DNA from: Saprospiraceae bacterium
GTDB lineage: Bacteria > Bacteroidota > Bacteroidia > Chitinophagales > Saprospiraceae
NCBI GenBank assembly: GCA_029263015.1
Contig: JAJCYI010000067.1
Span: forward strand, 1-33,811
Length of the DNA stretch: 33,811 nucleotides
Direction: 5' to 3'
In this document: positions 389 to 24,550 of the stretch, piece by piece
Position numbering within the stretch: the stretch's first letter is position 1
Layout of the letters: each line of letters begins with the position of its first letter
Position numbers and translations under genes: made by a program
The notes under the pieces: model-generated
The model's database searches: none
The model's input: the letters and a program-made list of their open reading frames with translations, nothing else
What the model was told of the DNA's origin: nothing

Positions 389-1242
389 AGGGTTGCGCTA
401 AGGAATTTCCAGTTAAAAAGATGTCCGAAGTGTTTGGAGTCAGCAGGAGCGGCTACTATAGGTGGTTGAAAAACAAAGGCCCACGCGCTAAAAAAGAGGA
501 AATTTTGAATACCCAAATAAAAACGGTTTTTGAATACAGTAGAGCGACCTATGGCAGCCCCAGGGTTCATCGGGAGCTAGAGAAAATGGAAGTTAAAATC
601 TCAAAAAGCACTGTGGCCAGGCGTATGAAAAGCTTAAAGGTTACGCCTAAAACAAAGAAGAGGTCCAAGAACACGACAGATTCAAAACACGGCCTGAAAA
701 TATCCCCTAATATTTTAAACAGGGAGTTTACGGTTACAGGGTTGGGACGGGTATGGGTGAGCGACATCACTTACATCCGGCTTGGACATTCATTTGTTTA
801 TTTAACAACAGTAATAGATTTAGCTGACCGGATGGTAGTGGGTTGGAACCTGAGTGATAATATGACCGATCAGGATACCACGGTTGCTGCTTTCAAAAAG
901 GCAGTTAAGAACAGGGCAATATTACCGGGATCAATTTTCCATTCGGACCGGGGAAGTCAATACGCAAGCGACGAATTCAGGAAGTTGCTGGAGACAGAAA
1001 AATGTATTCAGAGCATGTCCCGAAAAGGAAATTGTTGGGACAATGCAGTAGCTGAATCTTTTTTCAAAACCATAAAAGTAGAATCCTTGTACCGACATAA
1101 ATTTGAAAATGCCCGGGAAGTTTATTCAGCAATATTCGATTACATCGATGGGTGGTACAATACCAGGAGAATCCATTCTTCATTGGATGGAAGGTCACCG
1201 AGGGAAATGTCAGACTTTTTAGCAGCTAATTTGGTTGCTTGA
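385..1242 (+). CDS. IS3-family transposase OrfB (DDE integrase core)
   Basis: This 285-residue catalytic subunit carries an N-terminal HTH_21-type region (KKMSEVFGVSRSGYYRWL, about residues 11-28) followed by the rve integrase core. The DDE triad is visible: D127 in VSDITYI, D188 in HSDRGSQY and E224 in AVAESFFKTIK. D188 and E224 are separated by 35 residues, the DD(35)E spacing of the family. The frame overlaps OrfA by four bases (ATGA), which would allow coupled translation of OrfB alone as well as the frameshifted fusion. It looks intact and probably active. It cuts and joins the element ends. Confidence 0.93.
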   Translation: MKGCAKEFPVKKMSEVFGVSRSGYYRWLKNKGPRAKKEEILNTQIKTVFEYSRATYGSPRVHRELEKMEVKISKSTVARRMKSLKVTPKTKKRSKNTTDSKHGLKISPNILNREFTVTGLGRVWVSDITYIRLGHSFVYLTTVIDLADRMVVGWNLSDNMTDQDTTVAAFKKAVKNRAILPGSIFHSDRGSQYASDEFRKLLETEKCIQSMSRKGNCWDNAVAESFFKTIKVESLYRHKFENAREVYSAIFDYIDGWYNTRRIHSSLDGRSPREMSDFLAANLVA

Positions 1243-4963: not shown

Positions 4964-7900
4964 ATGTTGAAAACGAATTTTACAAGAACGCCTAAGAAAA
5001 GGTGGGCTTTAATCTGCTTGCTTTTTCTTGTGTTGGGTTATGGAAACATGATAGCTCAGTCAATGGCCTGCAACGATTTGGTACAAGTTTCCATTGACGG
5101 AACACCTAATGCTTGCCAAGTAATAATCAATGCAGACATGATCTTGGAAGGAGACCCGATCCCAGGTCATGATTATTACATTGAAATCAAACACAACTTT
5201 ACAGTGATTGCTTCAGGAGTGAATGAAGTGACCATTACGAATGCCAGCCAATATTTTGGCTACACTCTTACCGCAACAATTGAAGACCTATCAACTGGCA
5301 ACTCTTGCTGGGGATCCATGATCCTTGAAGATAAATTAGCCCCTATCATTACTTGTTCCGACGTAACGGTCGAATGTTCCCAAGACTTAAATGTTCCATT
5401 CCCAACAGCAGTTGATAACTGTGACTTGTACCCAGAGGTGCAAATGACAGGAGAGACAACCAATTCTACAACCATTTGTCCAAATGGGTATGCAACCAAT
5501 CAAAGAACCTTTGTAGCTATTGACGAGGAAGGCAATGTTTCTTTGCCATGCATACAGACGATTTATATTGAAAGACCCACTGCGGTGGATTTCCCGAACG
5601 ATATTATATGGCATTGTACTCAGTATGATTCCTATCCTGCTATTATTAATGCCGAACCTTTAAATCCATTGGTTTGGGATAATGATCTATCCACACCAAA
5701 CGTCATTGATGTTGCTTTAAATTTGGATCCGAACGTTTTGGACAGCACCGGTTCTGGTGTTGTTGCCAACGTCATCGGCCAATTTTGCAATTACCTACAA
5801 TCAAGCAGCGACCAAGTGCTAAATACTTGTGGGACAACTTTAAAGATCCTCCGTACCTGGACGGTTTTGGATTGGTGTACTTCCACAGTGGTGACATCAG
5901 GTGTTGGAGGAGAAGATAACATACAGGTAATCAAAGTGTTGGATTCAGTTGATCCAGAAATTGAGCGCTCACCTTTTAACGTGAGTGCAAACGTGCCGGG
6001 CCTCCACCCACAACCTTGTAGGTCTCAAGCATTCCTTTTTGCACCGACCTTGGTAAGTGACAATTGTAATTCAGTTGAGGTAAAAATATTTACCCCAGTT
6101 GGCGAAGCAATTTACTTGAATGGTGACGGTACAAACGGTGGCCTCATTCCAGCACCTGGATTGACAGTTGGCGTTCACAATGTTACCTATCAGGCGACTG
6201 ATGCCTGCGGCAACCAAATCAATTTGACGGTTGCCATTACTGTGGTAGATGATATAGTCCCAATTGCTATTTGTGATGAAATAACAGATGTGAACCTTGG
6301 CACGAATGGCAAAGCAAGCGTACCTGCCAATGTATTTGATGATGGCAGTTACGATAATTGCTGTTTGGATAAATTTGAAGTGCGAAGGATGGATGATCCA
6401 TGCGACCTGCCAGGTGCATTGGATTTTGGACCAACTGTCACTTTTTGCTGTGCAGATATTGGCGACACTGTAATTGTTGTTTTCCGTGCACTCGATTGTG
6501 ATAATAATGCAAATGAATGTATGGTCACGGTCAACGTGAACGATAAGCTTCCTCCAGTACTAAATAGCTGCCCTGCTAATGAGCGGATTAGTTGCGATTG
6601 GTACGCCAGCAATCTGGAGACAGAATTAGCTGATGCGGAAGATGAGGAGGAACAATGTGAAATATTAACAGACCATTTTGGAGAAGCATACTTTTTTGAC
6701 AATTGTGGTGCGAATGTAAATTGTGATGTTAATATTGCTGTCAACCAATGCCTGGAAGGTACGCTGAGAAGGACCTGGAGCGCCACCGATGATTATGGAA
6801 ATAATTCCACGCAAGACTGCATCCAGACTATTTTCGTGGATCAGATATCTGATTGGGTCGTTGAATTTCCAATTGACATTCTTGTTGACTGTGGCACAAC
6901 TCCGCCAGATTTTGGCGAGCCGGAGGTTTTCTTTGAAACCTGTGAAATGATCGCCATTTCTTATGAAGACAAGATATATACTACGGTAGCCGATGCCTGT
7001 TATAAAATTGTCCGTGATTGGGTAATCATCAACTGGTGTGTGGTGGGCGACCACATTGACCAAGAAGTTCTCGAAGTGCCAGAAGATGAACTGGGACTTA
7101 GCTTCCCAGCTTGCGATCTTGACGGCGACGGCGATTGTGACGACCATACTTTCCGGGACAGTTGGAATGCTGCATTTAAACCAAATGCAAATGCCGCTAA
7201 CCAAACCACCTCCCCTGATACAGATACAGATTCAGACCCATGGGACGGTTATGTTATTTACGAACAAGTAATCAAAGTCCTTGATACGGTTGATCCTGTG
7301 TTTGCTGATAGTTGCCTGATTGCCGATGTCTGCATCGAAGGTATAACCTGCGGTGTAAATTTGGTGATTCCATCTCCAGCAATTGACGAATGCAGCCCTG
7401 ATGTAAATGTGGAGGCAGAAATCTTATTTGGTAATACTTGGAGCAGTGGCTTTGGACCATATAATAATGTCGCACCCGGCACTTATGAAGTGCGGTTCAA
7501 TGCACAAGACAATTGCAACAACCAATCTGCTTGCGAAACCACGATTACGATAGTTGATTGTAAAAAACCTACGCCATATTGTAAGAATGGCATTATCGTC
7601 GAACTCATGGTTCCGGTCGATAGCAATGATGTGGCGATGGTGGAAGTTTGGGCCTCTGACCTTAACGCAGCCAGTTTCGACAATTGCCCAGGATCGCTGA
7701 CATTCTCGTTTTCAGCAGATGTTGATGACCTTAGCCAAACGTATGACTGCAATGATGTTGGACAAAATGAAGTGGAAATTTGGGTGACAGATGCTTTTGG
7801 CAATCAGGATTTTTGTGAGACATTTATCGTAATTCAGGCAAACATGGGGCAATGTGGCGACGATCCGTTGGTTTCAGCTTCAGGTGCCATCGCCACGGAA

Positions 7901-9091
7901 GCTAACGGAGCAATGATGGATTTGGAAGTTAGCCTCAGCGGCGAAAGCACCGGCATCGTTGTGACCGATATTGATGGGTCTTATGATTTCTACGGCATCC
8001 CTGTCGGGAACGACATTACCATAACACCTGAAAAAGACGACGACTTGTTGAATGGTGTAACGACCTTTGACTTGGTTCTCATCAGCAAGCATATCCTTGG
8101 GGTGACAATTCTTGATTCTCCATATAAATTGATAGCGGCTGATGCCAACAATTCTGGCACAGTGACCACTTTTGATTTGGTAGAAATAAGGAAGGTCATT
8201 TTGCTGGTCAATTCAGCATTTCCAAATAACACTTCCTGGCGTTTTGTTGACAATGGTTATTCTTTCCCGAATCCAAACAATCCTTGGGAAGAGGTTTTCC
8301 CTGAAATTATCAACATAAACAACATTGCGGCTACCATTACCGATGCGGATTTTGTTGCCGTAAAAATTGGTGATGTGAATGGTAGTGCAGTATCCAATGT
8401 GGCAGGTGGTGCTGAAGACCGTAGCGCTGGTTCGCTGGTTATCACTGCTGATGATAGGTTGCTAAGTGCTGGAGAATCAGTCATCGTTGAATTTAATACG
8501 GAAGAAAAACAACTTTTGGCATATCAATTCACCATGAATTTTGATGCTTCCAGGTTGGTTTTCGACGAAGTTGAATATGGCATTGCAACAGCGGAAAATT
8601 TCGGATTTACTTTACTTGATCAAGGTGCAATAACGACTAGCTGGAATATCAGTGGGAACGAGGTAATTGATCCTCGAAACCCATTGTTCAGTTTGGTTTT
8701 GACCGCCACCCAAAACGGTTTGTTGAGTGAAATGATAAGCGTAAATTCCAGGTTTACCATCGCCGAAGCTTACGATTTGGCTGGAACTCCGATGGAAATC
8801 GAATTGAGTTTTAATGGGGAAACTACCAAGCAATTCGAGTTGTACCAAAATACACCGAACCCATTTAATGGTCAAACTTCTATTGGTTTCAGTTTGCCAG
8901 AGGCTGGGGTAGCAGTTTTAACAATCGCGGACATTTCCGGTAGGTTGTTGATAAATATGCAGCGTGAATTTGCGAAAGGATATAATGAAATTAAGATAAA
9001 CAGCAGTGATCTTCCTACTTCTGGGGTTTTATTCTATACCCTTGAATCCGCCACTGAAACGGCGACCCGGAGGATGATTGTCGTTGAGTAA
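4964..9091 (+). CDS. Large T9SS surface protein with dockerin and cohesin-like modules
   Basis: A 1375-residue secreted protein. The ATG at 4964 gives a clean signal peptide (basic start, ALICLLFLVLGYG core, cleavage near IAQ); an ATG at 4910 adds 18 unlikely residues. Residues about 50-980 are Cys-rich, HYR-like beta-sandwich repeats with motifs such as AVDNCD and RTWTVLDWC. A short regulatory-type beta domain (about 985-1025) precedes a dockerin (about 1028-1145). Its second calcium loop is good (DANNSGTVTTFD); the first has Leu at ligand position 5 (DDDLLNGVTTFD); a DFVAVKIGDVNG tail follows. Then comes a cohesin-like domain (about 1157-1280) and a T9SS type A sorting domain (about 1285-1375, YQNTPNPFNG, ending TRRMIVVE). 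Domain calls are by eye. The probable role is cell-surface adhesion or assembly. Confidence 0.85.
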   Translation: MLKTNFTRTPKKRWALICLLFLVLGYGNMIAQSMACNDLVQVSIDGTPNACQVIINADMILEGDPIPGHDYYIEIKHNFTVIASGVNEVTITNASQYFGYTLTATIEDLSTGNSCWGSMILEDKLAPIITCSDVTVECSQDLNVPFPTAVDNCDLYPEVQMTGETTNSTTICPNGYATNQRTFVAIDEEGNVSLPCIQTIYIERPTAVDFPNDIIWHCTQYDSYPAIINAEPLNPLVWDNDLSTPNVIDVALNLDPNVLDSTGSGVVANVIGQFCNYLQSSSDQVLNTCGTTLKILRTWTVLDWCTSTVVTSGVGGEDNIQVIKVLDSVDPEIERSPFNVSANVPGLHPQPCRSQAFLFAPTLVSDNCNSVEVKIFTPVGEAIYLNGDGTNGGLIPAPGLTVGVHNVTYQATDACGNQINLTVAITVVDDIVPIAICDEITDVNLGTNGKASVPANVFDDGSYDNCCLDKFEVRRMDDPCDLPGALDFGPTVTFCCADIGDTVIVVFRALDCDNNANECMVTVNVNDKLPPVLNSCPANERISCDWYASNLETELADAEDEEEQCEILTDHFGEAYFFDNCGANVNCDVNIAVNQCLEGTLRRTWSATDDYGNNSTQDCIQTIFVDQISDWVVEFPIDILVDCGTTPPDFGEPEVFFETCEMIAISYEDKIYTTVADACYKIVRDWVIINWCVVGDHIDQEVLEVPEDELGLSFPACDLDGDGDCDDHTFRDSWNAAFKPNANAANQTTSPDTDTDSDPWDGYVIYEQVIKVLDTVDPVFADSCLIADVCIEGITCGVNLVIPSPAIDECSPDVNVEAEILFGNTWSSGFGPYNNVAPGTYEVRFNAQDNCNNQSACETTITIVDCKKPTPYCKNGIIVELMVPVDSNDVAMVEVWASDLNAASFDNCPGSLTFSFSADVDDLSQTYDCNDVGQNEVEIWVTDAFGNQDFCETFIVIQANMGQCGDDPLVSASGAIATEANGAMMDLEVSLSGESTGIVVTDIDGSYDFYGIPVGNDITITPEKDDDLLNGVTTFDLVLISKHILGVTILDSPYKLIAADANNSGTVTTFDLVEIRKVILLVNSAFPNNTSWRFVDNGYSFPNPNNPWEEVFPEIININNIAATITDADFVAVKIGDVNGSAVSNVAGGAEDRSAGSLVITADDRLLSAGESVIVEFNTEEKQLLAYQFTMNFDASRLVFDEVEYGIATAENFGFTLLDQGAITTSWNISGNEVIDPRNPLFSLVLTATQNGLLSEMISVNSRFTIAEAYDLAGTPMEIELSFNGETTKQFELYQNTPNPFNGQTSIGFSLPEAGVAVLTIADISGRLLINMQREFAKGYNEIKINSSDLPTSGVLFYTLESATETATRRMIVVE

Positions 9092-9105
9092 ATAGTGGAT
9101 GGTCG

Positions 9106-9138
9106 TTGGTGAAACCTGCATTCGTGCAGTTTCACCAA
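9106..9138 (+). terminator. Hairpin after the dockerin protein gene
   Basis: Stem TTGGTGAAACCTGCA / TGCAGTTTCACCAA with one bulged base and a TTCG loop, 15 bases after the stop. The T-tract downstream is weak, so it may attenuate transcription or protect the mRNA end and not stop transcription fully. Confidence 0.55.
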
Positions 9139-9176
9139 TTACCTTTCGCAAAATTGGCAAACTACTTGCTTAAAAA

Positions 9177-9983
9177 ATGGATATGAAAATTTCAAATGTG
9201 TTTGTTTTTTTTCTGACGTACTTGTTTTCAATTGGTCTTAATGCACAGACAGTGAATTTGACCACTCCCGATATGACCGTACAACAGGGAGATTATTTTG
9301 ATATGGAAGTGCGGATCGAAAATTTTGATGAAATCATTTCTCTGCAGTTTGCTGTTTTTTGGGACGAAACGGTGTTAGATTTCCAAGGAGTGACAGATTA
9401 TAACTTGCCCGAAGTTGATATATCGGCCAATGAGCAGAATTATATGTTGTACGGACATTTAGGAAAACTCAGGTTTTTTTGGTTCGATCCTGACCCGACT
9501 TTTTCTGGTGTAACATTGGACGATGGGACAGCAATATTTAAGATTCAATTTAAAGCCATTGGCAGCAATGCTTCAACAAGCTTGGTCGAAGTAGCAGCTG
9601 ATCCGGATATACCGCCGCTACCTTTGGAATTTGTTAATGCAGCTGGGCAGGAAGTCGATATTGATATCAATGTAGGTGTGGTCACGATAGATGGTGTAAA
9701 TGCTTCAGAAGAATCAGTGACCCAAGACTTCACTTTATTTCAAAACAACCCGAACCCTTTTACTGACCTAACCAATATTTCATTTCACCTCAAGCAATCA
9801 AGCAAAACCAAACTTAGTATTTACGACCACTCCGGTAAAGTTGTTTTCGAAAGAAATGAAAACTTCACCAGTGGGTTACATACAATCCAAGTAAACCGGG
9901 ATCTGTTCACTAGTGCGGGTTCCTATTTTTTTACCTTAAAAACTGAAAATGCGACAGCTACTCGGCAACTTGTTGTCCAGTAG
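9177..9983 (+). CDS. Small T9SS-secreted protein with one cohesin domain
   Basis: A 268-residue protein with a signal peptide (ISNVFVFFLTYLFSIGLNAQ), one cohesin-type beta-sandwich (about residues 25-170) and a T9SS type A sorting domain (about 180-268: FTLFQNNPNPFTDLTNISF, ending ATRQLVVQ). The cohesin has the same signature as the four modules in the next gene: an ENFDEIISLQFAVFWD strand, a WFDPDPTFSGVTLDDGTAIF segment and FKAIG. It lacks the Cys pair found in modules 2-4 there. It lies 85 bases after the dockerin gene and may be co-transcribed with it. A cohesin normally binds a dockerin, so the upstream protein is the obvious candidate partner; this is inference. The start could also be the second Met, six bases later. 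Confidence 0.85.
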   Translation: MDMKISNVFVFFLTYLFSIGLNAQTVNLTTPDMTVQQGDYFDMEVRIENFDEIISLQFAVFWDETVLDFQGVTDYNLPEVDISANEQNYMLYGHLGKLRFFWFDPDPTFSGVTLDDGTAIFKIQFKAIGSNASTSLVEVAADPDIPPLPLEFVNAAGQEVDIDINVGVVTIDGVNASEESVTQDFTLFQNNPNPFTDLTNISFHLKQSSKTKLSIYDHSGKVVFERNENFTSGLHTIQVNRDLFTSAGSYFFTLKTENATATRQLVVQ

Positions 9984-10368
9984 TTTTTTCGTTAATGAAT
10001 TGTTGGATTCTTAATTGATTTGTAGATAAAGGCTTTAATAATAAACCAATTGACAATCTTACAATTCATCATATTTAAGCTTTTGTGAATTTAATTTTAG
10101 AAGAGTTTTTCCTCTGAATGCATAAGTCGTGAAAGCTTTTTTAAAAATGTAAATTTGAAATGAGCAAATTGTTATGCTAATGTACTGGTTGCCAAAACTT
10201 TTACATTTTAGATTTATCATTTATCATTTTACATTTATTTAGTGGCAGTTTTATCTGCGGAAACCGATTCTGGGGCATCATAAAAAAATATCAAGGTTCT
10301 GCAGGATAGAATTGCAACCTTTTTTATCCGATTACATTTTTAACCAGTTCTAGTCCCAATCCGAACAT
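9984..10368 (+). other. 385-base intergenic stretch
   Basis: No gene seen. It is AT-rich, contains the heptamer array at 10205-10239 and a TAAATTTG box at 10150-10157 that could be a promoter -7 element for the tetra-cohesin gene, although no clear -33 partner is visible. Confidence 0.5.
10205..10239. repeat. Degenerate heptamer array (ATTTATC type)
   Basis: Five 7-base units in phase: ATTTTAG, ATTTATC, ATTTATC, ATTTTAC, ATTTATT, preceded by a partial unit. It lies 130 bases before the tetra-cohesin start. Confidence 0.7.
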
Positions 10369-13300
10369 ATGAAAAGACCGATTACCAACCTCGTCCTGGG
10401 GTGGATGGCTCTGTTGTTGGCAGTGTTCCAACTTAACGCGCAGACTACCACCTTCACCGTGACTCCGCAAATCGTAACCGGCAATCCAGGAGATCAATTC
10501 ACGGTTAACATCGAAGTAAAAGATTTTGACAACATCCTTAGCATGCAGTACTCTATGGGCTGGGATGCTAATGTTATTGAATTTATCCCGCCCGTTGGAA
10601 ATATCACCAATGCGCTGGCTGGATTTACCCCGGCCAATTTCGGTACCAACAATGCTGGCAACGGCATCCTGACACTTTCATGGCTCGATCCCAATGTGGC
10701 TGGAGTTTCCATCCCAGATGGGACGGTGCTCTATTCGCTTACTTTTGAAATCCTCACTTCCGCAGGAACTGACATTGCTTTCACCAGTACACCAACGATT
10801 ATTGAAATAATCGACGGTAACGGAAATGAAGTCAATTTTGTAGGAGAAGATGCGATGGTCAATGGAGGTGGTGGCGGAGGTGGCAGTTCTGGTGACCTCA
10901 TGGTTATCGCCTCTGAAGAAACAGCAGCTGCAGGCTCCAACACTTGTGTTGATGTTTCGGTTCAGAATTTTGATAACATCCTTAGTATGCAGTATAGTAT
11001 GCATTTCGATCCCGCAATCATTGAATTCACGGGGGTACAAGGTTTGAATTTACCAGGTCTTGTAGCTTCCAATATCGGTACCAACAATGCAGGCAATGGT
11101 GACCTTACGCTATCTTGGTTGGATCCGAATGTGAGTGGTGTTACTGTACCTAATAACACGGTAATATATCAAGTCTGCTTTGATGTAATTGGGAGTAGCG
11201 GCCAAACAAGCTCATTTACCTTTGATGGAATTCCCACTGCCATAGAAGTAATCGATGGTAACAGTGATCCAGTTAATTTCATACCGGATAATGGATCGGT
11301 CACTGTAAGCGGCGGCAACCCACCACCACCACCGCCAGTTGCTGGTTTTGCTATCCTGGCATCTGATACGACTGTGGAAAGTGGTCAAAATTTCTGCATG
11401 CAGTTTTCTGTGCAGGATTTTACTGACATCTTATCCATGCAGTATTCCATGGTGTATGATTCAACCAAATTGGAATTCACTGGCTTGCAAAACCTGAACC
11501 TGCCAGGTCTGGTGACATCAAGTTTTAATACTTCCAATGCTGGAGCTATTACTATGTCGTGGCTCGATCCAAATGTAACTGGGATCACGCTCGACGATGG
11601 AGAAGTCATTTATGAAATATGTTTTGATGCAATTGGATCAAACAACTGTAATAATAGCACCCAACTTACATTTTCAGATACACCCACACCCATTGAGGTA
11701 ATTGACAAAGACGGAAATGAAGTCGATTTCAATAGCTCTCCCGGTGTGGTTTCCATCTGTGACGGAGTTGTTGGTAATCCCACCAACTTGACCTTCACTG
11801 CCTCGGATGAGACTGAGGCAACTGGATCTGAATTGTGCGTGGATGTATCAGTGGATTTGTTTGACTGCATCGTGAGTACTCAATATTCCATGCATTTTGA
11901 TCCCACGGTTTTGGAATACACTACTATCAATAATTTTGGTTTACCTGATATGACCTTAGGTGGCAATTTTGGAGTGACCAATGCCAATACTGGCGTAATA
12001 ACTTTCTCTTGGATTGACCCTTCTACTGCAGGCGTTACAGTGCCAAACGGGACTGTTATATATTCCGTTTGTTTTGATGTGATTGGTTCTTCAGGTCAAA
12101 CTTCGCCTTTTTCCTTTGATAGTAATCCAACCCTTATTGAAGTTACCGATTGTATTCCTAGCGTTCTAAATCCTGATTTTGTTGCAGGTACTGAAACTGT
12201 CGGAGACCCTTGCCCTGGCGCAGTGAGCATTATTGGCGGTGTCGTCAATGACATCATGTGTTTTGGTGCGGCAACCGGCAGTGTTGACATTTCAGTGACC
12301 GGTGGGGACAATACCTATACTTATGTGTGGACAAATGCTGGAGGCCAACAAGTTAGCACTAACGAAGACTTGACTGGAGTTGGTGCTGGTACTTATACAG
12401 TTGAGGTATCAAGCTGTGGTGGCAGTACGACTGCAATGGCGAGTTATACAATTGAGCAACCAGCGTCTGGGATGACCCTTACAGGGAATATTATTCACAT
12501 AAAATGTTTTGGTGATAATACTGGAACTGTTGACTTGATGGTAAGTGGTGGGTTTGTAAACCCGCCTTCTTGTAATTACACTTTTCTGTGGAGCAATGGA
12601 TCTACTTTTGAAAATCTTTTCGGTGTAGGCCCTGGCCCTCATTCAGTAACAGTGACTGATTGCAACAATTGCACAGCGACCGAAACCTTTACTATCAATG
12701 GTCCAGCTACATCTTTGGCTTTGTCGGCCATACCTGTACCGACACTCTGTTTTGGTGAGTGCTCAGGCCAGATCAATGCTTCTGCAAATGGCGGGCTTGC
12801 CCCATACCAGTATATGTTAAATACGGGCCCTTGGCAGAATATCGGCACTTTTACTAATCTATGTGCTGGGGTTTATACAGTCAAGACAAGAGATTCGATT
12901 GGATGTATCCGGTCAACATCAATAACGGTGACGTCTCCATCTGCAGTTCAACTTTCAGCTGCGGTGACTAACACAACAGCTGGGTGCAATGGATCAATCA
13001 ACCTCACTCCAACTGGTGGTACGCCGCCATATACTTATAGCTGGACTGGGCCGAGTTTTACTGCTTCGACCGAAGATATCAGTGGCTTATGCCCAGGTGA
13101 ATACTGTGTGACGGTTACTGATTTCAAAGGATGCACAAAGACATTGTGTGAAACAGTCCAAGCACCTTTGGCCATCTCTTTAGATAAAATTCCTTCCTGT
13201 TTTGGTCAATGCACAGGTGAGTTGAGTGTCAACATTACAGGTGGGCAAACGCCGTTCACTTTCGCATGGTCAGGAAGTCCCAGCAATCCGAGTGGCCAGA

Positions 13301-15318
13301 ACCCTGTAAACCTGTGTCCAGGCACTTACACGGTTACAGTAACTTCGGCAGATGGCCAGGTTCAAACAGCATCAGAAACAGTTGTTGGTGCATCTTCTGC
13401 TGTCCAGATAACGGGTGCTGATATTACAATGTTGAGTTCTCCTCCACCTACCAGCGATGGTAGTATTGCCTTGACAGTCACAGGTGGTTTTGGTAACTAT
13501 ACTTATGAATGGAGTAATGGTACCACTAACAACCCAGCAATAAATTTACCTGAAGGGTCATATATCGTGACTGTTACTGACATGTATGGATGCACAGCCG
13601 TCAGCGTTCCTTACACAGTATTTTTTACAACCTCCCCAATGAGTTTGAATTTGGAAGGCAGTGCTGTCTGTCTTGTGGATGTTGCTGACGGAGGAACATT
13701 GAACGTTAATGTGACTGGAGGCTTTGCCCCTTATGATTTCCAATTTTCTGGCCCAGACGTTATTGATCCTGTTCAAAATGACCAAGATGGACAATTGACG
13801 ATATCAGGGCTGACTCCTGGAAACTACTGCGTAACAGTTACCGATGCTGCTCCTGGTACTTTCAATCAAGAATTGAATGATTGTGATGACATCCAATTGA
13901 TTGACCTCGAAATTACTCCTATTGCGATTACGCCTGTGACCAATGGGAACAATGGTCAAATTGACATTACTGTTTCCGGCGGCGATCAGGTCTATACTTT
14001 TGTATGGAACAATGGCTTCCTCTCACAGGACTTAAATAACTTACAGTCAGGTTCTTATGATGTAGTAATTACAGACGCCAATGGCTGTATCGAAGAGTTC
14101 ACAGGTATTCTCGTTGAGGAATTTACTGCTTCGGTAGATGCGGTGATGAATGATTGCCCCAATGATGCAAATGGCTCGATCACAGCTATTCCAAACGGAA
14201 GCCTGAATGCGCCTTTTACTTATTTGTGGAGTAACGGTGAGACTACTCAGACCATCAACAGTTTGTCAGTTGGCACATACATGGTAACAATTACGGATAC
14301 GCTGAATGCTTCAATTGTGGTTTCATTTGAAATAAATTCCATATCAAATCTTGATGCCAACATCGAGCTAACGACTGACATCCTATGCTTTGGCGATCCT
14401 ACTGGAGGAGCGAAGGTTGTACCTTCTGATGGTATGTCGCCATATACTTATGCATGGAGCAACAGTGTTTTTTTAGATGAAATAATCAATGCACCAGCAG
14501 GGGATTATACCGTTACGGTAACGGATGCTGTTAACTGTCAAGTGGTTGTAGGCTTAACAATAGAACAACCAGATGCAATGACTGTCAACATCACTACAGA
14601 TAACGGTGCCGATTGTACAGAAGGAAATGGCCGCGCAACGGCAAATCCATCTGGTGGTACTTTACCATACACTTATACTTGGGATGATCCTTTAGGCCAA
14701 AACGGTAAAACTGCCATTTTGCTTGAGCCAGGCGCGTTCACGGTTACTGTGGCAGATGATAATGGTTGTGAGGAAACGGCCAATGCGATCATTGATCCAA
14801 TTACACCACTAATAATAGAAGGTTTGTCAGTACCTGATTCTGGTGGTCCAGATGGAGAAGCGATTGCCAATGTGGTCAGCGGAACCCCTCCTTATTTGTT
14901 TGAATGGAGGGATTACCTGGTATCAGATAGCATCCTTACCGAGCTACTCCCAGACTTATACTTCGTAAAAGTTTCGGACGCAAATGGTTGTGAAGAATTG
15001 GTGACCATCCGAGTAGAAGATGCGACTATTTGTCTGGAAGCTTCAGCGATCATTACGCCAGAAGGTGACGGTTTCAATGAAGAATTTAAACTCGGTTGCC
15101 TGTCTCGATACAGTGATAACCGTCTGGAAATCTTTAATCGCTGGGGGCAATCCGTGTTTCTTGCCGACAACTACAACAATGACAATCTTTGGCGTGGTAT
15201 CAACCGACGTGGCAATGATGTGCCTGACGGCGTTTATTTCTACGTCTTCGAGTACCACGACCCTGTCAGTAGTACCCAGCAAACGCAGAAAGGTGCGGTA
15301 ACTGTGCTTAGGAAATAG
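10369..15318 (+). CDS. Giant tetra-cohesin / SprB-repeat protein with T9SS type B sorting domain
   Basis: A 1649-residue secreted protein. After a signal peptide (about 1-25, ending LNAQ) come four cohesin modules: about 26-163, 176-312, 323-458 and 474-610. They are separated by a Gly7 linker (near 166) and a Pro6 linker (near 318). Each shows DNILSMQYSM-like and SWLDPNVxGVT motifs; modules 2-4 carry a Cys pair (CVDV/VCFD-type) absent from module 1. Residues about 625-1540 hold roughly twelve SprB-type repeats (CFGxxTG, TGGxxPYTYxW, GxYTVTVTDxxGC). The C-terminus (about 1553-1649: ITPEGDGFNEEFKLGCL, LEIFNRWGQSVF, VPDGVYFYVFEY) is the gliding-motility-associated CHU_C type B sorting domain. 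Type B substrates depend on SprF-like partners, and one is encoded next. The protein probably works as a scaffold or adhesin at the cell surface. Confidence 0.9.
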   Translation: MKRPITNLVLGWMALLLAVFQLNAQTTTFTVTPQIVTGNPGDQFTVNIEVKDFDNILSMQYSMGWDANVIEFIPPVGNITNALAGFTPANFGTNNAGNGILTLSWLDPNVAGVSIPDGTVLYSLTFEILTSAGTDIAFTSTPTIIEIIDGNGNEVNFVGEDAMVNGGGGGGGSSGDLMVIASEETAAAGSNTCVDVSVQNFDNILSMQYSMHFDPAIIEFTGVQGLNLPGLVASNIGTNNAGNGDLTLSWLDPNVSGVTVPNNTVIYQVCFDVIGSSGQTSSFTFDGIPTAIEVIDGNSDPVNFIPDNGSVTVSGGNPPPPPPVAGFAILASDTTVESGQNFCMQFSVQDFTDILSMQYSMVYDSTKLEFTGLQNLNLPGLVTSSFNTSNAGAITMSWLDPNVTGITLDDGEVIYEICFDAIGSNNCNNSTQLTFSDTPTPIEVIDKDGNEVDFNSSPGVVSICDGVVGNPTNLTFTASDETEATGSELCVDVSVDLFDCIVSTQYSMHFDPTVLEYTTINNFGLPDMTLGGNFGVTNANTGVITFSWIDPSTAGVTVPNGTVIYSVCFDVIGSSGQTSPFSFDSNPTLIEVTDCIPSVLNPDFVAGTETVGDPCPGAVSIIGGVVNDIMCFGAATGSVDISVTGGDNTYTYVWTNAGGQQVSTNEDLTGVGAGTYTVEVSSCGGSTTAMASYTIEQPASGMTLTGNIIHIKCFGDNTGTVDLMVSGGFVNPPSCNYTFLWSNGSTFENLFGVGPGPHSVTVTDCNNCTATETFTINGPATSLALSAIPVPTLCFGECSGQINASANGGLAPYQYMLNTGPWQNIGTFTNLCAGVYTVKTRDSIGCIRSTSITVTSPSAVQLSAAVTNTTAGCNGSINLTPTGGTPPYTYSWTGPSFTASTEDISGLCPGEYCVTVTDFKGCTKTLCETVQAPLAISLDKIPSCFGQCTGELSVNITGGQTPFTFAWSGSPSNPSGQNPVNLCPGTYTVTVTSADGQVQTASETVVGASSAVQITGADITMLSSPPPTSDGSIALTVTGGFGNYTYEWSNGTTNNPAINLPEGSYIVTVTDMYGCTAVSVPYTVFFTTSPMSLNLEGSAVCLVDVADGGTLNVNVTGGFAPYDFQFSGPDVIDPVQNDQDGQLTISGLTPGNYCVTVTDAAPGTFNQELNDCDDIQLIDLEITPIAITPVTNGNNGQIDITVSGGDQVYTFVWNNGFLSQDLNNLQSGSYDVVITDANGCIEEFTGILVEEFTASVDAVMNDCPNDANGSITAIPNGSLNAPFTYLWSNGETTQTINSLSVGTYMVTITDTLNASIVVSFEINSISNLDANIELTTDILCFGDPTGGAKVVPSDGMSPYTYAWSNSVFLDEIINAPAGDYTVTVTDAVNCQVVVGLTIEQPDAMTVNITTDNGADCTEGNGRATANPSGGTLPYTYTWDDPLGQNGKTAILLEPGAFTVTVADDNGCEETANAIIDPITPLIIEGLSVPDSGGPDGEAIANVVSGTPPYLFEWRDYLVSDSILTELLPDLYFVKVSDANGCEELVTIRVEDATICLEASAIITPEGDGFNEEFKLGCLSRYSDNRLEIFNRWGQSVFLADNYNNDNLWRGINRRGNDVPDGVYFYVFEYHDPVSSTQQTQKGAVTVLRK

Positions 15319-15321
15319 TGA

Positions 15322-15412
15322 GTTGGTTCATGGTTTATAGTTCTTGGTTAATGGTCGGTTTCAAGTTCCAACTTGGTTCCCCAAAACCAAGAACTAAAAA
15401 CCATGAACCAAC
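15322..15412. repeat. Heptamer-based inverted repeat (28-bp arms)
   Basis: Arms 15322-15349 and 15385-15412 pair at 27 of 28 positions. The whole block runs in 7-base units (GTTGGTT, CATGGTT, TATAGTT, CTTGGTT ... AACCAAG, AACTAAA, AACCATG, AACCAAC). It begins 3 bases after the tetra-cohesin stop and ends 20 bases before the PorP/SprF start. It could attenuate read-through and so set the ratio of the two products. Confidence 0.85.
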
Positions 15413-15432
15413 AACCGATTAAAACATCAATA

Positions 15433-16356
15433 ATGAAAAATATATTTATAATCATAGCCATCGTTTTTGGGTTTACGACTGCCCAGGCGCAAGAGCAATC
15501 AGCCGTTTTTTCCCACTATTATCTAAATCCGATTTTAGTAAATCCATCAGTAGCGGGGTTTACTGATCTGCATCAATTGCAGATGAATATCCGCAATCAA
15601 TGGACTGGGTTTCCCGAATCACCAAAGTCTTATCACATCGGCTATAACGGCCCAATCGGTAAGACATTAGGAATTGGCTTAGGGCTGATGTCCGAGAACC
15701 TCGGTAATCTTTCCAACCTGCGTTTCCAGATGAATTATGCTTTTCGTTACCAAGTGAAGCATGTGAAATTTGCAGCTGGTTTTTCAACGGAATTTTATAC
15801 GATTAAAGTGGCGGATTCTGTACTTGACAACCCACACTACCAACCTGGTGACCCTATCGTGGAAGATGCCATAGAAAACAATCGCATTTTCGATGCATCT
15901 TTAGGATTTTGGACAACCTTTTATGACAATACCTTTATCGGTCTGGCATTTTCCAATTTAGTTGTTGCTAAAATTGGTGAGATTGAATCTGGCGATCCAG
16001 AGGGTTCTTTTTTCAAATTCGTGACCCTCAATTTTGGGCACACCTTTGACATTGAGCAGTACAATTTCAAATTGACACCGTCGCTCATGGTGCAACATAT
16101 CAAAGACACACCTTTCCGTGCTGATTTCAACATCGTAGGATCTTTCATTGATGATAAGTTGATTGCAGGTCTTTCCTACCGAGCAGGTTTGGGCGGGGCA
16201 GTTGGACTCATGTTGGGCACCAATGTCGATGTGTTCAAGATCTATTACAGTTACGATGTTTCGTTTCAAACCGTGCAGCAGTATAATGGTGGAACGCATG
16301 AGGTGACCATCGCATTTGATTTTGCCGGAGGCAAGAAGAAGTTCGATCGGGGGTGA
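15433..16356 (+). CDS. PorP/SprF-family T9SS outer-membrane partner protein
   Basis: A 307-residue outer-membrane beta-barrel protein of the PorP/SprF family. The start at ATG 15433 gives a signal peptide (MKNIFIIIAIVFGFTTAQAQ); the frame also extends 20 codons upstream into the inverted repeat, which is unlikely to be coding. Family signatures near the mature N-terminus are FSHYYLNPILVNPSVAGF and RNQWTGFPESPKSYHIGYN, followed by alternating amphipathic strands (IGLGLMSENLGNL) and a late GLSYRAGLGGAVGLMLG segment. In Flavobacterium, SprF is needed for export of SprB, a type B substrate encoded next to it. The same gene order here makes this the probable dedicated partner of the upstream tetra-cohesin protein. 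Confidence 0.93.
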   Translation: MKNIFIIIAIVFGFTTAQAQEQSAVFSHYYLNPILVNPSVAGFTDLHQLQMNIRNQWTGFPESPKSYHIGYNGPIGKTLGIGLGLMSENLGNLSNLRFQMNYAFRYQVKHVKFAAGFSTEFYTIKVADSVLDNPHYQPGDPIVEDAIENNRIFDASLGFWTTFYDNTFIGLAFSNLVVAKIGEIESGDPEGSFFKFVTLNFGHTFDIEQYNFKLTPSLMVQHIKDTPFRADFNIVGSFIDDKLIAGLSYRAGLGGAVGLMLGTNVDVFKIYYSYDVSFQTVQQYNGGTHEVTIAFDFAGGKKKFDRG

Positions 16357-16361
16357 TATGA

Positions 16362-16396
16362 GGGGTCAGGAGGGAGGACTCAGGGGTCAGAGCTTG
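16362..16396. repeat. Degenerate heptamer array (GGGGTCA type)
   Basis: Units GGGGTCA, GGAGGGA, GGACTCA, GGGGTCA, GAGCTTG in phase, starting 6 bases after the PorP/SprF stop. The GGGGTCA/GGAGTCA units resemble those at 4255-4317. Confidence 0.65.
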
Positions 16397-16451
16397 ACTG
16401 CTCTTTGTATTTGAATATCAACTGGTTAGATGCCTAACGGCTAAAATAAAT

Positions 16452-16581
16452 GGTTCTTTGACAAATCCCGTGGAAACCCTCAAACCAAATGGTAAAAGGA
16501 AGCCAAAAGGTGACACCTTTTGGAAAGGTGTCACCTTTCACCCGCTATGAAAACTAAAATCACGGGATTTGTCAAAGTACC
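16452..16581. repeat. Nested inverted repeat (outer 21-bp, inner 15-bp arms)
   Basis: Outer arms 16452-16472 and 16561-16581 match at 20 of 21 positions (core TTTGACAAATCCCGTG). Inside lies a perfect hairpin, AAAGGTGACACCTTT (16506-16520) and its complement (16524-16538), with a 3-base loop. The TTTGACAAATC core recurs near 17803, upstream of the amidase gene. Confidence 0.85.
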
Positions 16582-16661
16582 AAATAAATAAAACAGTAGT
16601 TTTTGATAATAAGCTTAAACTACTCAAGAATAGATGTCCTTTAACAATTGGTTTTTGGGAT

Positions 16662-16700
16662 GGCCTCTCCTTCGTAATGACGAGGAGAGGTCACTTTTTT
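16662..16700 (+). terminator. Rho-independent terminator candidate, plus strand
   Basis: Stem CCTCTCCTTCGT / ACGAGGAGAGG with one bulge and an AATG loop, followed by TCACTTTTTT. It is the best intrinsic terminator for the surface-protein/PorP transcription unit, about 300 bases after the PorP stop. Confidence 0.6.
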
Positions 16701-16712
16701 GGCTAAAACAAA

Positions 16713-16745
16713 AGAAGCGCCGCTTTTCTAAAAAGCGACGCTTCT
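16713..16745. terminator. 15-bp hairpin with 3-base loop
   Basis: AGAAGCGCCGCTTTT, loop CTA, AAAAGCGACGCTTCT; one G-T-type mismatch. It shares the 15-3-15 geometry of the neighbouring hairpin. Confidence 0.6.
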
Positions 16746-16759
16746 GTGTTTTCCATAAA

Positions 16760-16792
16760 AAAGGTGACACCTTTTCGAAAGGTGTCACCTTT
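16760..16792. terminator. Second copy of the AAAGGTGACACCTTT hairpin, after the amidase gene
   Basis: Perfect 15-bp arms with loop TCG, ending 4 bases beyond the amidase stop. The arms are identical to those at 16506-16538. It probably acts as the amidase terminator or mRNA-end hairpin. Confidence 0.7.
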
Positions 16793-16796
16793 GGGA

Positions 16797-17756
16797 TCAA
16801 AGTCCGTTTTTTTCGATTTCCATGATAGCAGCAATGTGGGCATCAGCGACTTTCTGCCGGACGGAATCTTTCATCAATTCCAGGACTTCTGCTTTATTAT
16901 TATAAAAACCATTTTCCGTAAGGATAGCAGGCATCACGGTCTTGACCAGCACATATAGGTTTTTGATCTGGGTGGATTTCAGCTTTCGGTCTTTAAAGCC
17001 AGTTTGGTCGAGGATATGTTTCTGAAAAATGGCTGCCATCTTTTTGCCTTTTTTACTGTTCTTCGCAAACCAGGTTTCAGCGCCTTTTATGGAAGAGGAA
17101 ACCCATTTGCCAACAGCCGCAGGCCCTGCATTTGAATGCACCGATACAAATAACTTCGGCAGGTCAGATTCACGTTTGTTGGCCCGGTCCACTCGTTCTT
17201 TAAGGAAGCTGCCCACTTCCAAATAGTCAGGTACTACATCAAAAAACTTGACTCCTTTTTTTGTTAGTTCCTTCTTGATCCTTTCCACAACATCCCGATT
17301 GAATTCGTACTCAAAAAATTGCTTTTCCTGGTCATCTTCTTCCCATTTTGGCGATCTTTTTCCAGCTTGCAATTTACCGTGACCATTATCCAGGCACCAC
17401 AAAAATCGGGGGGTATGAGCTGGCGGTGGAGGCGTGGTAGGTTCGGAAGTGTCCGTGCCCGTGGAGGGCGGGGTAGGGTCTATCGGTGGTTCCGGTTCAG
17501 GAGTTGGATCAGTAGATGGCTCTGTTTCAATGGCGGCTTCTTTATCAGGATCGGCAAATGGACCAGGGTCATTATCAGCCACGGGAATATTGACCTCCAT
17601 AACATTAATGGTCTCTATCGTATCGACTGGGACGTCGGAGCTATCTTCCATTAACCCTGGAACTTTGTCATGGGAAGCGGAAGGCAGGTCTTTCTTTTTG
17701 CCTCCGAACAGAGAGCCAAAAAAGTTTGAAAAAATATCGGAAAGGCGTTTTAACAT
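16797..17756 (-). CDS. N-acetylmuramoyl-L-alanine amidase (Amidase_3)
   Basis: A 319-residue zinc amidase that would cut the bond between N-acetylmuramic acid and the peptide stem of peptidoglycan. The catalytic domain spans about residues 117-315. Visible zinc/catalytic residues are H126 (CLDNGHGK), E151 (FEYEFNRDV), H207 (SVHSNAG) and E281 (ILTENGF). The N-terminal third is unusual: an amphipathic start (LKRLSDIFSNFFGSLFGGKKK) without a hydrophobic signal core, an acidic stretch, then a Pro/Thr/Glu-rich linker (about 78-115). How it reaches the cell wall is unclear. The LDNGHG and GKRSP context resembles phage or injection-system lysins of Bacteroidota. No phage genes lie nearby. It is convergent with PorP/SprF. 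Confidence 0.87.
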   Translation of the reverse strand: MLKRLSDIFSNFFGSLFGGKKKDLPSASHDKVPGLMEDSSDVPVDTIETINVMEVNIPVADNDPGPFADPDKEAAIETEPSTDPTPEPEPPIDPTPPSTGTDTSEPTTPPPPAHTPRFLWCLDNGHGKLQAGKRSPKWEEDDQEKQFFEYEFNRDVVERIKKELTKKGVKFFDVVPDYLEVGSFLKERVDRANKRESDLPKLFVSVHSNAGPAAVGKWVSSSIKGAETWFAKNSKKGKKMAAIFQKHILDQTGFKDRKLKSTQIKNLYVLVKTVMPAILTENGFYNNKAEVLELMKDSVRQKVADAHIAAIMEIEKNGL

Positions 17757-17855
17757 GATTGTTTTTGATTAGGTGTGATGCTCAAAGGTATAAAAGTAAG
17801 GCTCTTTGACAAATCACCATAAATATGTCCGACTACTTAAGTTTTGGAAAACACG

Positions 17856-19058
17856 CTAGATACCTTCCATCGCCTGCGCCAAGTCTCCAATAATATCCTC
17901 AACATGCTCAATGCCGACAGAAAGTCTGATTAACCCATCAGTAATACCATTCCTTAACCTGATTTCTTTGGGAATGTTCAGGTGCGACATGGACGCAGGG
18001 TGCAAGATCAAAGTGTCAACGTCGCCGAGGGTAGGGGCGAGGGTGCAGAATTTGATGGCATTCATAAATCGGATGCCAGCTTTGAGGCCATCTTTCAACT
18101 CAAAACTCAACATGCCTCCAAACGATTTCATCTGCTTGCTGGCAATTCTGTGGTCGGGGTGGGAGGGGAGGCCGCAATAATTGACCCGCCCTACTTTTGG
18201 GTCATTTTCAAGATAGGTTGCGACTGCCATTGCATTTTCACTGTGGCGTTCCATTCGGACGGCGAGTGTTTTCATGCCATTGTGGACTAACCATGCGTCC
18301 CAGGGATTGCAATTTGTACCAGCCAATTTCATCGTTTGCCAAATCCTGCCATTTTTGCCCATTTGATCAATATGAGGGGTCACCAAGGCCCCAGCAATAG
18401 AATTTCCATGACCGTTCAAAAACTTGGTGGTTGAATGGACCACGTAATCAATTCCCATCTTTATGGGTTGTTGCAGATAGGGTGTAGCAAAGGTGTTGTC
18501 AATCGCACTCAACCTTTCATATTTTTTTGCTAATCCGGCCAAGGCCGAAATGTCCACGCAAGCCAATGTTGGGTTTGCGGGTGTTTCAAAATAGACCATT
18601 TTGATGTTTCTGTTTTTTTTCAAATGGTCTTCCACTAGCTCAAGATTTTGGAGGTCGCAAAGTATGGTCGTTATGCCAAATGGCGCCAGTACTTTGACAA
18701 ACAATTCCGTGGTGCCGCCATATAAGTTGCCTTGTGTCAGGATTTTATCACCACTTTTCAACCTCGACATCATCAGGGTGGTAACAGCAGCTTGTCCCGA
18801 ACTGAACATCAAAGCGGCAGCTTCTAGATCGCTTCCAGCAGTTTCGAGCGTTGCTAATTTATCGGCCACGGCCTCTATAGTCGGATTTCCATACCTTCCA
18901 TAGACATGTCCTTCTTTTTTTTGAGAAAAAATATCGATCCCTTCATCAATGGATTCAAATGAAAAAGAGGAAGTAGCATAAAGTGGCAATATATGAGGCG
19001 ATGTGGTGCGCGGATCGGCAACCTCTTTGGCGCAAATTGAATTGATGTGACGGTGCAT
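17856..19058 (-). CDS. Trans-sulfuration family PLP enzyme (cystathionine/methionine gamma-lyase type)
   Basis: A 400-residue Cys/Met-metabolism PLP-dependent enzyme. The Schiff-base lysine is K212 in HSTTKFLNGHGNS, the cofactor aspartate is D187 in AIDNTFATP, the ring-stacking tyrosine is Y113 (NLYGGT) and the phosphate-binding loop is SSGQAA. The YGRYGNPT block near residue 53 contacts the PLP of the neighbouring subunit in this family. The position occupied by the reactive Cys of Pseudomonas-type methionine gamma-lyase (YGCT) is Gly here (YGGT). That argues for cystathionine gamma-lyase/synthase or an O-acyl-homoserine sulfhydrylase over a classical methionine gamma-lyase. Cytoplasmic. It is a single gene with no methionine-pathway neighbours, so substrate assignment stays open. 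Confidence 0.88.
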   Translation of the reverse strand: MHRHINSICAKEVADPRTTSPHILPLYATSSFSFESIDEGIDIFSQKKEGHVYGRYGNPTIEAVADKLATLETAGSDLEAAALMFSSGQAAVTTLMMSRLKSGDKILTQGNLYGGTTELFVKVLAPFGITTILCDLQNLELVEDHLKKNRNIKMVYFETPANPTLACVDISALAGLAKKYERLSAIDNTFATPYLQQPIKMGIDYVVHSTTKFLNGHGNSIAGALVTPHIDQMGKNGRIWQTMKLAGTNCNPWDAWLVHNGMKTLAVRMERHSENAMAVATYLENDPKVGRVNYCGLPSHPDHRIASKQMKSFGGMLSFELKDGLKAGIRFMNAIKFCTLAPTLGDVDTLILHPASMSHLNIPKEIRLRNGITDGLIRLSVGIEHVEDIIGDLAQAMEGI

Positions 19059-19297
19059 GATTTAAATTTTATAGCAACAAAGAAATGGTTTCGTTTCTTT
19101 ATTCCCATCATGGTTTTCACAAAAAGAACCTGATTGGTGGTATGTGAGCTTAAAACTTGTTTATTTTGCAGGCTTGTAATTAGAAATTGTCTAATCAGTT
19201 GATTGTCAATTACTATCTAATTCTTGAACTCCAATTTCAATACTCGACCACTTTATATGGTACAGTATAAATTCACAACAACATTTACTGATTAGCA

Positions 19298-20359
19298 ATG
19301 CGCGGAAAGACTGGACGATCCAAAAATGATGATGAAATCCTGCAAAGCCACATATTTATTGCAGACCCGAAACAAGGTGCGATGCGGCTGGACAAATTTC
19401 TCACCGATCGGGTTTTTAAGGTAACCCGCAGCAGGGTGCAGAATGCTATCAAAGCTGGATTGGTGTTTGTAAATGGAGATGACCTTGTGAAATCCAATTA
19501 CAAAGTACGGCCAGGTGATAAGATCGAATTTATGATCCCAAAGCCTTATGATGAGGCCATCACCGTTCAGCCCGATAAAATCCCTTTAGATATAAAATAC
19601 GAAGATGACCATTTGTTGGTGGTGTACAAACCAGCAGGAATGGTTGTTCACCCTGGTATAGGGAATTACCGGCGCACGCTCGTCAATGCGTTGGTTTATT
19701 ATTTTCAAGATTTGCCAGTCATGGCGGGAAACCCTGAAAACAGGCCAGGCCTGGTCCACCGGATTGATAAGAATACGTCTGGCCTTTTGGTTGTGGCCAA
19801 AACCGACGAGGCAATTTTCAAACTGGCCAAACAATTTCAGGACCATACCATTCATCGGCGCTACCAAGCAATCGTGTGGAGCGAACCTGAAGAAGATGAA
19901 GGGACTATTGAAAATTGGATTGGTCGCCATCCCCGATACAGGACAAAAATGGCAGTGCTGGAAGACGAAAACCATGCAAAGTGGTCGGTCACACATTACA
20001 AGGTGCTGGAGCGGTTGTATTATGTCAGCCTTATTGAATGCAATTTGGAAACTGGCCGGACCCATCAGATTAGGGTACACATGTCGAACGCTGGCCACCC
20101 ACTGTTTAACGATACTAAATATGGAGGTGACCGTATCAAGAAAGGAACTGTTTTCAGTAAATACAAGCAGTTTGTTGAGAATTGTTTTAAGATTATCCCC
20201 CATCATGCCCTTCATGCCAAAGAGCTTGGTTTTGTACATCCAGCTACAGGGGAAAACATGTTGTTTACCAGTGAACTACCATCTACCATGGCCGATTGTT
20301 TGGACCGGTGGCGCTCATATGTGACAGATCGTAAATCAAAATTAACTTTGGAGAGTTGA
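19298..20359 (+). CDS. RluA/RluD-family RNA pseudouridine synthase
   Basis: A 353-residue enzyme that converts uridine to pseudouridine in RNA, most like the RluD branch acting on 23S rRNA. An N-terminal S4 RNA-binding domain (about residues 28-85: MRLDKFLTDRV, SRVQNAIKAGLVFVNG) is followed by the synthase domain. That domain carries the family motif HRIDKNTSGLLVVAK, with catalytic D157, and the later ETGRTHQIRVHMSNAGHPLF block. The length suits RluD. The nearest upstream gene is divergent, with a 239-base spacer. A 7-base tandem array begins four bases after the stop. The exact target uridines cannot be read from sequence. Confidence 0.93.
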   Translation: MRGKTGRSKNDDEILQSHIFIADPKQGAMRLDKFLTDRVFKVTRSRVQNAIKAGLVFVNGDDLVKSNYKVRPGDKIEFMIPKPYDEAITVQPDKIPLDIKYEDDHLLVVYKPAGMVVHPGIGNYRRTLVNALVYYFQDLPVMAGNPENRPGLVHRIDKNTSGLLVVAKTDEAIFKLAKQFQDHTIHRRYQAIVWSEPEEDEGTIENWIGRHPRYRTKMAVLEDENHAKWSVTHYKVLERLYYVSLIECNLETGRTHQIRVHMSNAGHPLFNDTKYGGDRIKKGTVFSKYKQFVENCFKIIPHHALHAKELGFVHPATGENMLFTSELPSTMADCLDRWRSYVTDRKSKLTLES

Positions 20360-20363
20360 ACTT

Positions 20364-20454
20364 ATTGAATGGAGAATGGAGAATGGAGAATGGAGAATGG
20401 AGAATGGAGAATGGAGAATTGAGAATTGAGAATTGAGAATGGAAAATTGAAAGT
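20364..20454. repeat. Heptamer tandem array (GGAGAAT/TGAGAAT)
   Basis: Thirteen 7-base units in phase: ATTGAAT, GGAGAAT x7, TGAGAAT x3, GGAAAAT, TGAAAGT. It begins 4 bases after the pseudouridine-synthase stop. The unit resembles the complement of the CACCATT array at 1281-1350. Confidence 0.95.
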
Positions 20455-23425: not shown

Positions 23426-23503
23426 TGCCCATAACGGTTTGCATGGCTGCAGGTGCGGCGCATAGCCACACTTGACAGCCATGCTTTGTTCGAGGCAGCG
23501 TTA
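23426..23503 (-). repeat. attC-like imperfect palindrome, downstream of RhuM
   Basis: On the minus strand it starts with the RhuM stop codon (TAACGC) and ends CGTTATGGGCA. An inner perfect pair GCATGGCTG/CAGCCATGC and outer AAC/GTT ends give a foldback. The closing GTTATGGGCA is the exact reverse complement of the opening TGCCCATAAC of the next element, as expected for the two ends of one integron cassette. Confidence 0.4.
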
Positions 23504-24502: not shown

Positions 24503-24526
24503 ATTCAAAAAATTGCTTTTGTTTTC

Positions 24527-24550
24527 AACTTGTGCAAATCTACACAAGTT
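24527..24550. promoter_or_regulatory. Palindrome AACTTGTG-N8-CACAAGTT upstream of rhuM
   Basis: Perfect 8-bp arms lying 25-48 bases before the chosen RhuM start, a usual place for an operator near the promoter or in the leader. The same half-site recurs within the gene. Confidence 0.4.

Follow-up and report, generated by a model that had tools for sequence, protein, structure and literature searches.

A conserved gene cluster for a multi-cohesin, type B-tailed protein and its PorP/SprF partner in Saprospiraceae: a candidate surface scaffold

Genes and modules of the locus

The window, by which we mean the whole stretch of 33,811 nucleotides analysed from a Saprospiraceae genome (assembly GCA_029263015.1, contig JAJCYI010000067.1), carries four plus-strand genes, ORFs A to D, separated by gaps of 85, 385 and 54 bases. 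Modules, tails, gene order and copy numbers, as reported below, are read from the sequence. ORF A (4964-9091) joins a bead-string ectodomain to an Ig-dockerin-cohesin cassette and a type A sorting tail of the type IX secretion system (T9SS), a system of the Bacteroidota type. The first ATG of its frame lies at 4910; the start at 4964, giving MLKTNF..., makes by eye the better signal peptide. The ectodomain (5060-7879) strings together beta-sandwich domains, and many of its cysteines are invariant in an alignment of 45; the cohesin (8423-8788) was recognised by Pfam and by fold comparison, and the type A sorting domain (8855-9091; PF18962, TIGR04183) closes the protein, with Por_Secre_tail at 32.6 bits over a Pfam cut-off of 27 when the whole protein is searched.

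ORF B (9177-9983) is a small protein with one cohesin (9255-9578; 35.0 bits in Pfam) and a type A sorting domain (TIGR04183 of NCBIfam, 46.9 bits). ORF C (10369-15318) starts with four cohesins, at 10456-10797 (45.3 bits), 10906-11307 (30.3 bits), 11365-11688 (31.1 bits) and 11800-12132 (27.6 bits), scored by Pfam at 89.9 bits for the four stretches, and it further holds 12 SprB stretches (248.9 bits). Its type B sorting domain (15040-15318; PF13585, TIGR04131) gives 77.6 bits with CHU_C and 35.5 bits with TIGR04131, the latter barely above the cut-off of 35, and the next gene encodes a PorP/SprF protein, so that type B substrate and partner stand side by side. This next gene, ORF D (15373-16356), belongs to the family of PorP/SprF outer-membrane partners (PF11751, 175.4 bits; TIGR03519, 196.8 bits); it was listed with a TTG start, and by counting there are in-frame ATGs at 15403 and 15433.

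The initial annotation, made from the letters of the sequence, had described a dockerin-cohesin protein, a mono-cohesin protein and a tetra-cohesin protein, each with a T9SS sorting domain, followed by PorP/SprF. The profile scores and, for ORF A, the fold comparison bear this out for all four genes, and the two dockerin strings it had named, DANNSGTVTTFD and DFVAVKIGDVNG, are both present in the translation of ORF A.

Promoter-like sites (39, against 28.8 with an sd of 5.1 in shuffles) and terminator-like sites (15, against 10.1 with an sd of 3.1) gave nothing decisive. Elsewhere the window encodes a transposase with Integrase-core and HTH_21 domains (385-1242, plus strand), a pairing that we take to be IS3-like, a RhuM family protein (23501-24565, minus strand; 373 bits) and a protein of 1944 aa that combines five HYR stretches and a match to H-type lectin with a type A T9SS tail (25313-31147, plus strand).

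The dockerin and its calcium loops

Searched as a whole protein, ORF A reaches 19.0 bits with Dockerin_1 (PF00404), below the Pfam cut-off of 22.9; the dockerin segment alone scores 25.0 bits, above it. With A2, a profile built from dockerin relatives of the same genome in which the window sequence is itself one row, ORF A gives 267.5 bits. In profile searches these dockerins match solved ones (4dh2_B, E 5.2e-8; 4uyp_B, E 6.8e-7).

The second calcium loop, DANNSGTVTTFD, is complete (8141-8176, from translation and alignment). For the first loop, alignment places at 8051-8071 a C-terminal half, NGVTTFD, and native Dockerin_1 matches start at profile position 10 in 8 of 11 cases in this genome. 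Judging from alignment and tail-swap scores, the first loop looks split, its N-terminal half apparently being supplied by the tail DVNGS (8372-8386), so that a GDVNGS tail about 107 residues away would complete it. The two halves lie 100-119 residues apart, and the tail can be read as loop positions 1-5 in 139 of 155 dockerins, a count that is partly built in because some of the loci were chosen by a tail pattern and the pattern used for reading also fixed letters. We therefore repeated the comparison by alignment on 54 dockerins from fetches independent of the tail pattern; there, 48 of the 52 with all letters have a tail of the form D-x-N/D-x-S/T/N/D. When the tail was moved to the front of three dockerins, their Dockerin_1 scores rose from 25.0, 24.2 and 20.3 to 38.3, 34.0 and 33.4 bits; shuffled tails in the same place gave 27.4, 29.3 and 22.5 bits. 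A contiguous but degenerate first loop is favoured by the residues just before NGVTTFD, where position 1 is D or N in 49 of the 54 and position 3 in 38; at position 5 of such a loop the commonest residue is Leu, which is not of ligand type, and the full pattern occurs in only three. Mean-field DCA of dockerin and cohesin, too shallow at 126 effective sequences, ranks the pair I68-V166 seventh, which weakly favours the split loop.

Cohesins and the cis dockerin-cohesin unit

By the Pfam cut-off for Cohesin (PF00963, 24.1 bits), ORFs B and C are above and the ORF A copy, at 16.1 bits, is below. The latter was placed by family profiles and by comparison of a predicted fold: a PDB search with the modelled segment 7880-8833 of ORF A gave 63 matches at E <= 0.001. 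The 50 listed are by title cohesin, cohesin-like or scaffoldin chains, with the exception of 2o4e and 3kcp, which are titled only as an interaction module and as multimodular components. For this copy the proposed cohesin-like module is thus a cohesin fold and not another beta-sandwich family. Profile searches also link these cohesins to solved ones (1g1k, E 9.7e-8); a single-sequence search found no solved cohesin for ORF B.

Cohesins contact dockerins through an Asp position in strand 3 and a Glu in strand 8. The column aligned with the Asp/Asn of solved cohesins is here Gln, in 100% of 132 cis cohesins, 89% of 51 of the ORF B type and 68% of 263 scaffold cohesins, and column 117 is Glu in 89%, 92% and 74% of these classes, respectively. 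Cis and scaffold cohesins differ at conserved columns (A116, A118, Y119 and a Cys pair), so one dockerin need not bind both. The cysteines, at columns 17 and 94, are each present in 81% of the 263 scaffold cohesins and are not conserved in the cis cohesins. As a side observation, these two columns might form a disulfide, for example within 10906-12132 of the window.

In 101 of 102 dockerins of related loci a cohesin follows 13-31 residues after the dockerin, in a set biased towards this outcome by ranking with the dockerin-cohesin query A1 and with its single miss at a contig end; the linker is 13-20 residues, and 31 in one case. Within the genome itself a cohesin comes just after the dockerin in 13 of the 15 dockerin ORFs read. 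AlphaFold2 modelled ORF A 7880-8833, aligned with 95 relatives, with a pLDDT of 95.3 and a pTM of 0.91, which places dockerin and cohesin confidently relative to each other as a predicted rigid unit. Given this predicted unit and the cohesin close behind most dockerins, one cannot simply take ORF A for a client of ORF C, and the initial view of it as merely held there finds no support in that form.

The bead string of ORF A (940 residues) was modelled with a pLDDT of 86.7 and a pTM of 0.41, a value to be set beside that of the cassette with the caution that the string has many more domains. Its Foldseek matches included cadherins, contactins and the neck of Aureispira GhpA, all with low TM-scores, the top one being GhpA (PDB 9flp) at 0.15. 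Kinship with GhpA was set aside, as a profile search gave no sequence match at E <= 0.001. The bead profile did match 4m03, a platelet-adhesin chain of another bacterium, with an E of 1.7e-5.

Gene order in related genomes

With ORF B as query, 120 genomes of the family gave at least 47 stand-alone full-length matches by count, window included, and we fetched the loci of the best 40 of at least 46 outside the window. A cohesin-bearing gene is next in 39 of these 40 (the exception is L147); in L132 and L138 it is only a contig-end fragment with one cohesin, and in L127 a second ORF B copy, seen by eye, precedes the scaffold. Complete scaffolds, with 3-10 cohesins each, are present in 31 of the best 40 loci, and PorP/SprF is the next gene in 30 of the 31, the remaining contig ending 55 bases on. 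The initial annotation had singled out this pairing of a multi-cohesin type B protein with PorP/SprF, and its gene order is conserved. A dockerin gene lies at most 600 bases upstream of the operon in 7 of the 40 loci and downstream of PorP/SprF in 12, and it directly flanks the operon in only 19 of 40, with several contigs ending there.

A scan with A1, using one pattern on the GDVN tail, kept at least 79 loci with mostly Saprospiraceae titles. Eight of them also carry ORF B and a multi-cohesin gene: L034, L035, L040 and L041 together with PorP/SprF; L039 (seemingly the same record as L114), L052 and L109 up to a contig end; and L064, from Phaeodactylibacter xiamenensis KD52, with a cut PorP/SprF and a scaffold in two frames. 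The two frames of L064 overlap (12253-20446) and hold four and eight cohesins. ORFs A-D belong to a conserved system.

Dockerin proteins of the genome and their distribution

The genome (6.95 Mb in 245 contigs) contains by Pfam 11 dockerins (E <= 0.001), 26 cohesins (E <= 0.01) and 17 PorP/SprF proteins; the 11 Dockerin_1 matches are flagged over the cut-off, two of them only together with frame neighbours. A genome-wide dockerin count, proposed with the initial annotation, came to 17 copies with profile A2. We read 15 dockerin ORFs and that of locus L153, which makes 16 and, if all are among the 17, leaves one unread. Two of the 15 end right after the dockerin, with neither cohesin nor sorting tail. 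In the dockerin proteins scanned, the domains are Ig-like (HYR among them), CarboxypepD_reg-like and, in one instance, P_proprotein, besides DUFs. Across the 14 of 17 proteins covered, Pfam recognised no glycoside hydrolase, no other catalytic domain and no carbohydrate-binding one (the other three are a 5178 aa protein, that of L153 and the unread one), in agreement with the absence of enzymes and carbohydrate-binding modules first noted for the locus. A multi-cohesin type B gene occurs together with PorP/SprF and a dockerin protein in three clusters of the genome, namely the window, C172 with five cohesins and C210 with two.

Of 40 relatives, 24 have a match to profile A2: 23 of the 25 from the family and one of the 15 from the rest of the order. 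In a set of 296 genomes from across the phylum, 17 gave a match, five in the family and 12 outside; among the non-matching genomes one from the family is listed and 259 are unlisted. Co-occurrence of A2 with a further query, A5, was dropped as evidence, since dockerin-cohesin proteins are themselves among the matches of A5; ten genomes are without A5, and of these nine lack A2 and one has a weak A2 match, with 0-2 cohesin matches each.

Proteins ending in a dockerin were then collected from A2 matches by a frame length of 1027-1114 aa, which gave 15 loci, 14 from other genomes of the same genus. They hold 16 ORFs with a terminal dockerin and neither cohesin nor sorting tail, ending 1-17 residues past the dockerin (L163 is cut by a contig end and may be longer), and their N-termini resemble signal peptides by eye. 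In L155, L157, L160, L161, L166 and the genome's own L023 the dockerin-only gene adjoins a five-cohesin type B scaffold, so that the order PorP/SprF, five-cohesin type B scaffold, dockerin-only protein recurs in six genomes of one genus. L153 is a further dockerin-only ORF of the genome, and in L137, from another genus, a similar protein follows an operon of the ORF B type. These proteins, all outside the window, fit better as clients of the scaffold than ORF A does. Separately, L144 (13965-19331, minus strand) encodes a dockerin protein with a type A tail in which a cohesin was not detected.

Discussion

The explanation that we consider best, and whose chances we judge evenly balanced, is that ORFs A-D make a T9SS-exported adhesive surface scaffold on which dockerin-ended proteins dock in trans, those of the ORF A type being closed in cis. 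By analogy with Flavobacterium and Porphyromonas, ORF D would collect ORF C at the translocon and hold it at the outer membrane, and ORF C would display its cohesin array on the SprB-repeat shaft. Onto these arrays, and perhaps also onto the small cohesin protein ORF B, the cell's own dockerin-ended proteins would dock, chiefly those lacking a cohesin in their own chain, to form a coat of Ig-type stalks that serves adhesion or matrix building. For ORF A and the majority of its paralogues, the cohesin that comes next would keep the dockerin in a closed joint, situated directly above the sorting tail, that may open to exchange partners. It is this binding in trans that we infer. Counting against it are the conserved differences between cis and scaffold cohesins, the low share of loci with a dockerin gene flanking the operon (19 of 40, with several contigs ending there) and the fact that the dockerin-only arrangement was seen in one genus. 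The picture of ORF C as an SprF-exported scaffold for dockerin-bearing partners, proposed at the outset, is in this way retained in part: the cohesin and dockerin relatives and the order of type B gene and PorP/SprF speak for it, and ORF A as its simple client is not supported.

For export, the genome has SprA (2278 bits); for the gliding machinery, its best GldJ match, 360.9 bits, is below the cut-off of 458.2. In Flavobacterium johnsoniae, the type B substrates tested are reported to depend on their cognate PorP/SprF shuttles, some crosstalk aside; the tail is reported to determine where they end up, and mobile substrates are placed outside operons with a PorE-like gene (PMC12618676); type B tails are described as binding PorP-like proteins (PMC9143113). 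Among the ten neighbouring window genes scanned, none is PorE-like. A bolder extension, which we think doubtful, makes the dockerin a second surface-sorting signal, by which tail-less proteins with a signal peptide would reach or stay outside only via the cohesins of a type B scaffold; as the T9SS is reported to pass folded proteins (PMC9251779), they might even be exported already bound to it.

The main rival holds that the dockerin and cohesin of each protein pack only in cis, the scaffold cohesins being generic adhesin beads on which nothing docks. The cohesin 13-31 residues behind nearly every dockerin, though counted in a set fetched with A1, the high pTM of the cassette and the conserved residues peculiar to cis cohesins are all expected from it. 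It accounts poorly for the dockerin-only proteins, which have no cis cohesin and adjoin five-cohesin scaffolds in six genomes, and for cohesins kept as arrays of 3-10 beside PorP/SprF in chains without a dockerin, and we regard it as a serious but somewhat unlikely reading. Dockerin-cohesin proteins could instead join head to tail by swaps between neighbours, forming fibres with ORF C as their base: most copies carry both halves of the lock on one chain, and loop positions 9, 10 and 12 are alike in both dockerin loops and across the family. Against this, the short linker and the confident single-chain model favour closure in cis, and every such protein has its own sorting tail, which makes fibres quite improbable. 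A cellulosome-like enzyme complex, suggested by the cohesin and dockerin modules only, is hardly credible, since Pfam detected neither a glycoside hydrolase nor a carbohydrate-binding domain in the 14 of 17 dockerin proteins of the genome that were scanned. Being apparently without enzymes, the proposed scaffold is more likely for sticking than for digesting.

Among the matches listed from the open-licence literature, which comprises neither subscription papers nor preprints, no title concerns a cohesin-dockerin system tied to type IX secretion. For cohesin or dockerin in Saprospiraceae, the text matched in that literature names only cellulosome modules in seagrass metagenomes, and a review covering both scaffoldin and SprB treats them apart in the portions matched. 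Should our reading be true, a family that is widespread in the environment would be using cohesin-dockerin assembly as a kit for building its surface, coupled to the type B anchoring of the T9SS. The dockerin would then exist in a form with a split calcium loop, and proteins that lack a sorting tail might hitch-hike to the surface.

Several known systems share features with this one. The Aureispira GhpA grappling hook and ORF A probably have only Ig-type beads in common. ANME archaea, as described in PMC9012536, resemble the present case in that numerous dockerin and cohesin proteins, scaffoldin-like chains with up to 5 cohesins included, occur in organisms with no known role in breaking down cellulose; being archaea, these would secrete and anchor such proteins in other ways. 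The cellulosome scaffoldins and dockerin proteins of Clostridia share the cohesin fold, dockerin relatives and a multi-cohesin chain; here, however, the proteins have T9SS tails, no enzyme or carbohydrate-binding module in 14 of 17 dockerin proteins, and a dockerin that usually has its own cis cohesin and an apparently split first calcium loop. Closest in layout to ORFs C and D are SprB-SprF and Fjoh_3952-Fjoh_3951, for which SprB repeats, a type B tail and an adjacent PorP/SprF are reported (PMC12618676, PMC9143113). To adhesins of this kind, the present system adds an N-terminal array of 3-10 cohesins and, before the scaffold, a small gene whose product pairs a cohesin with a type A tail.
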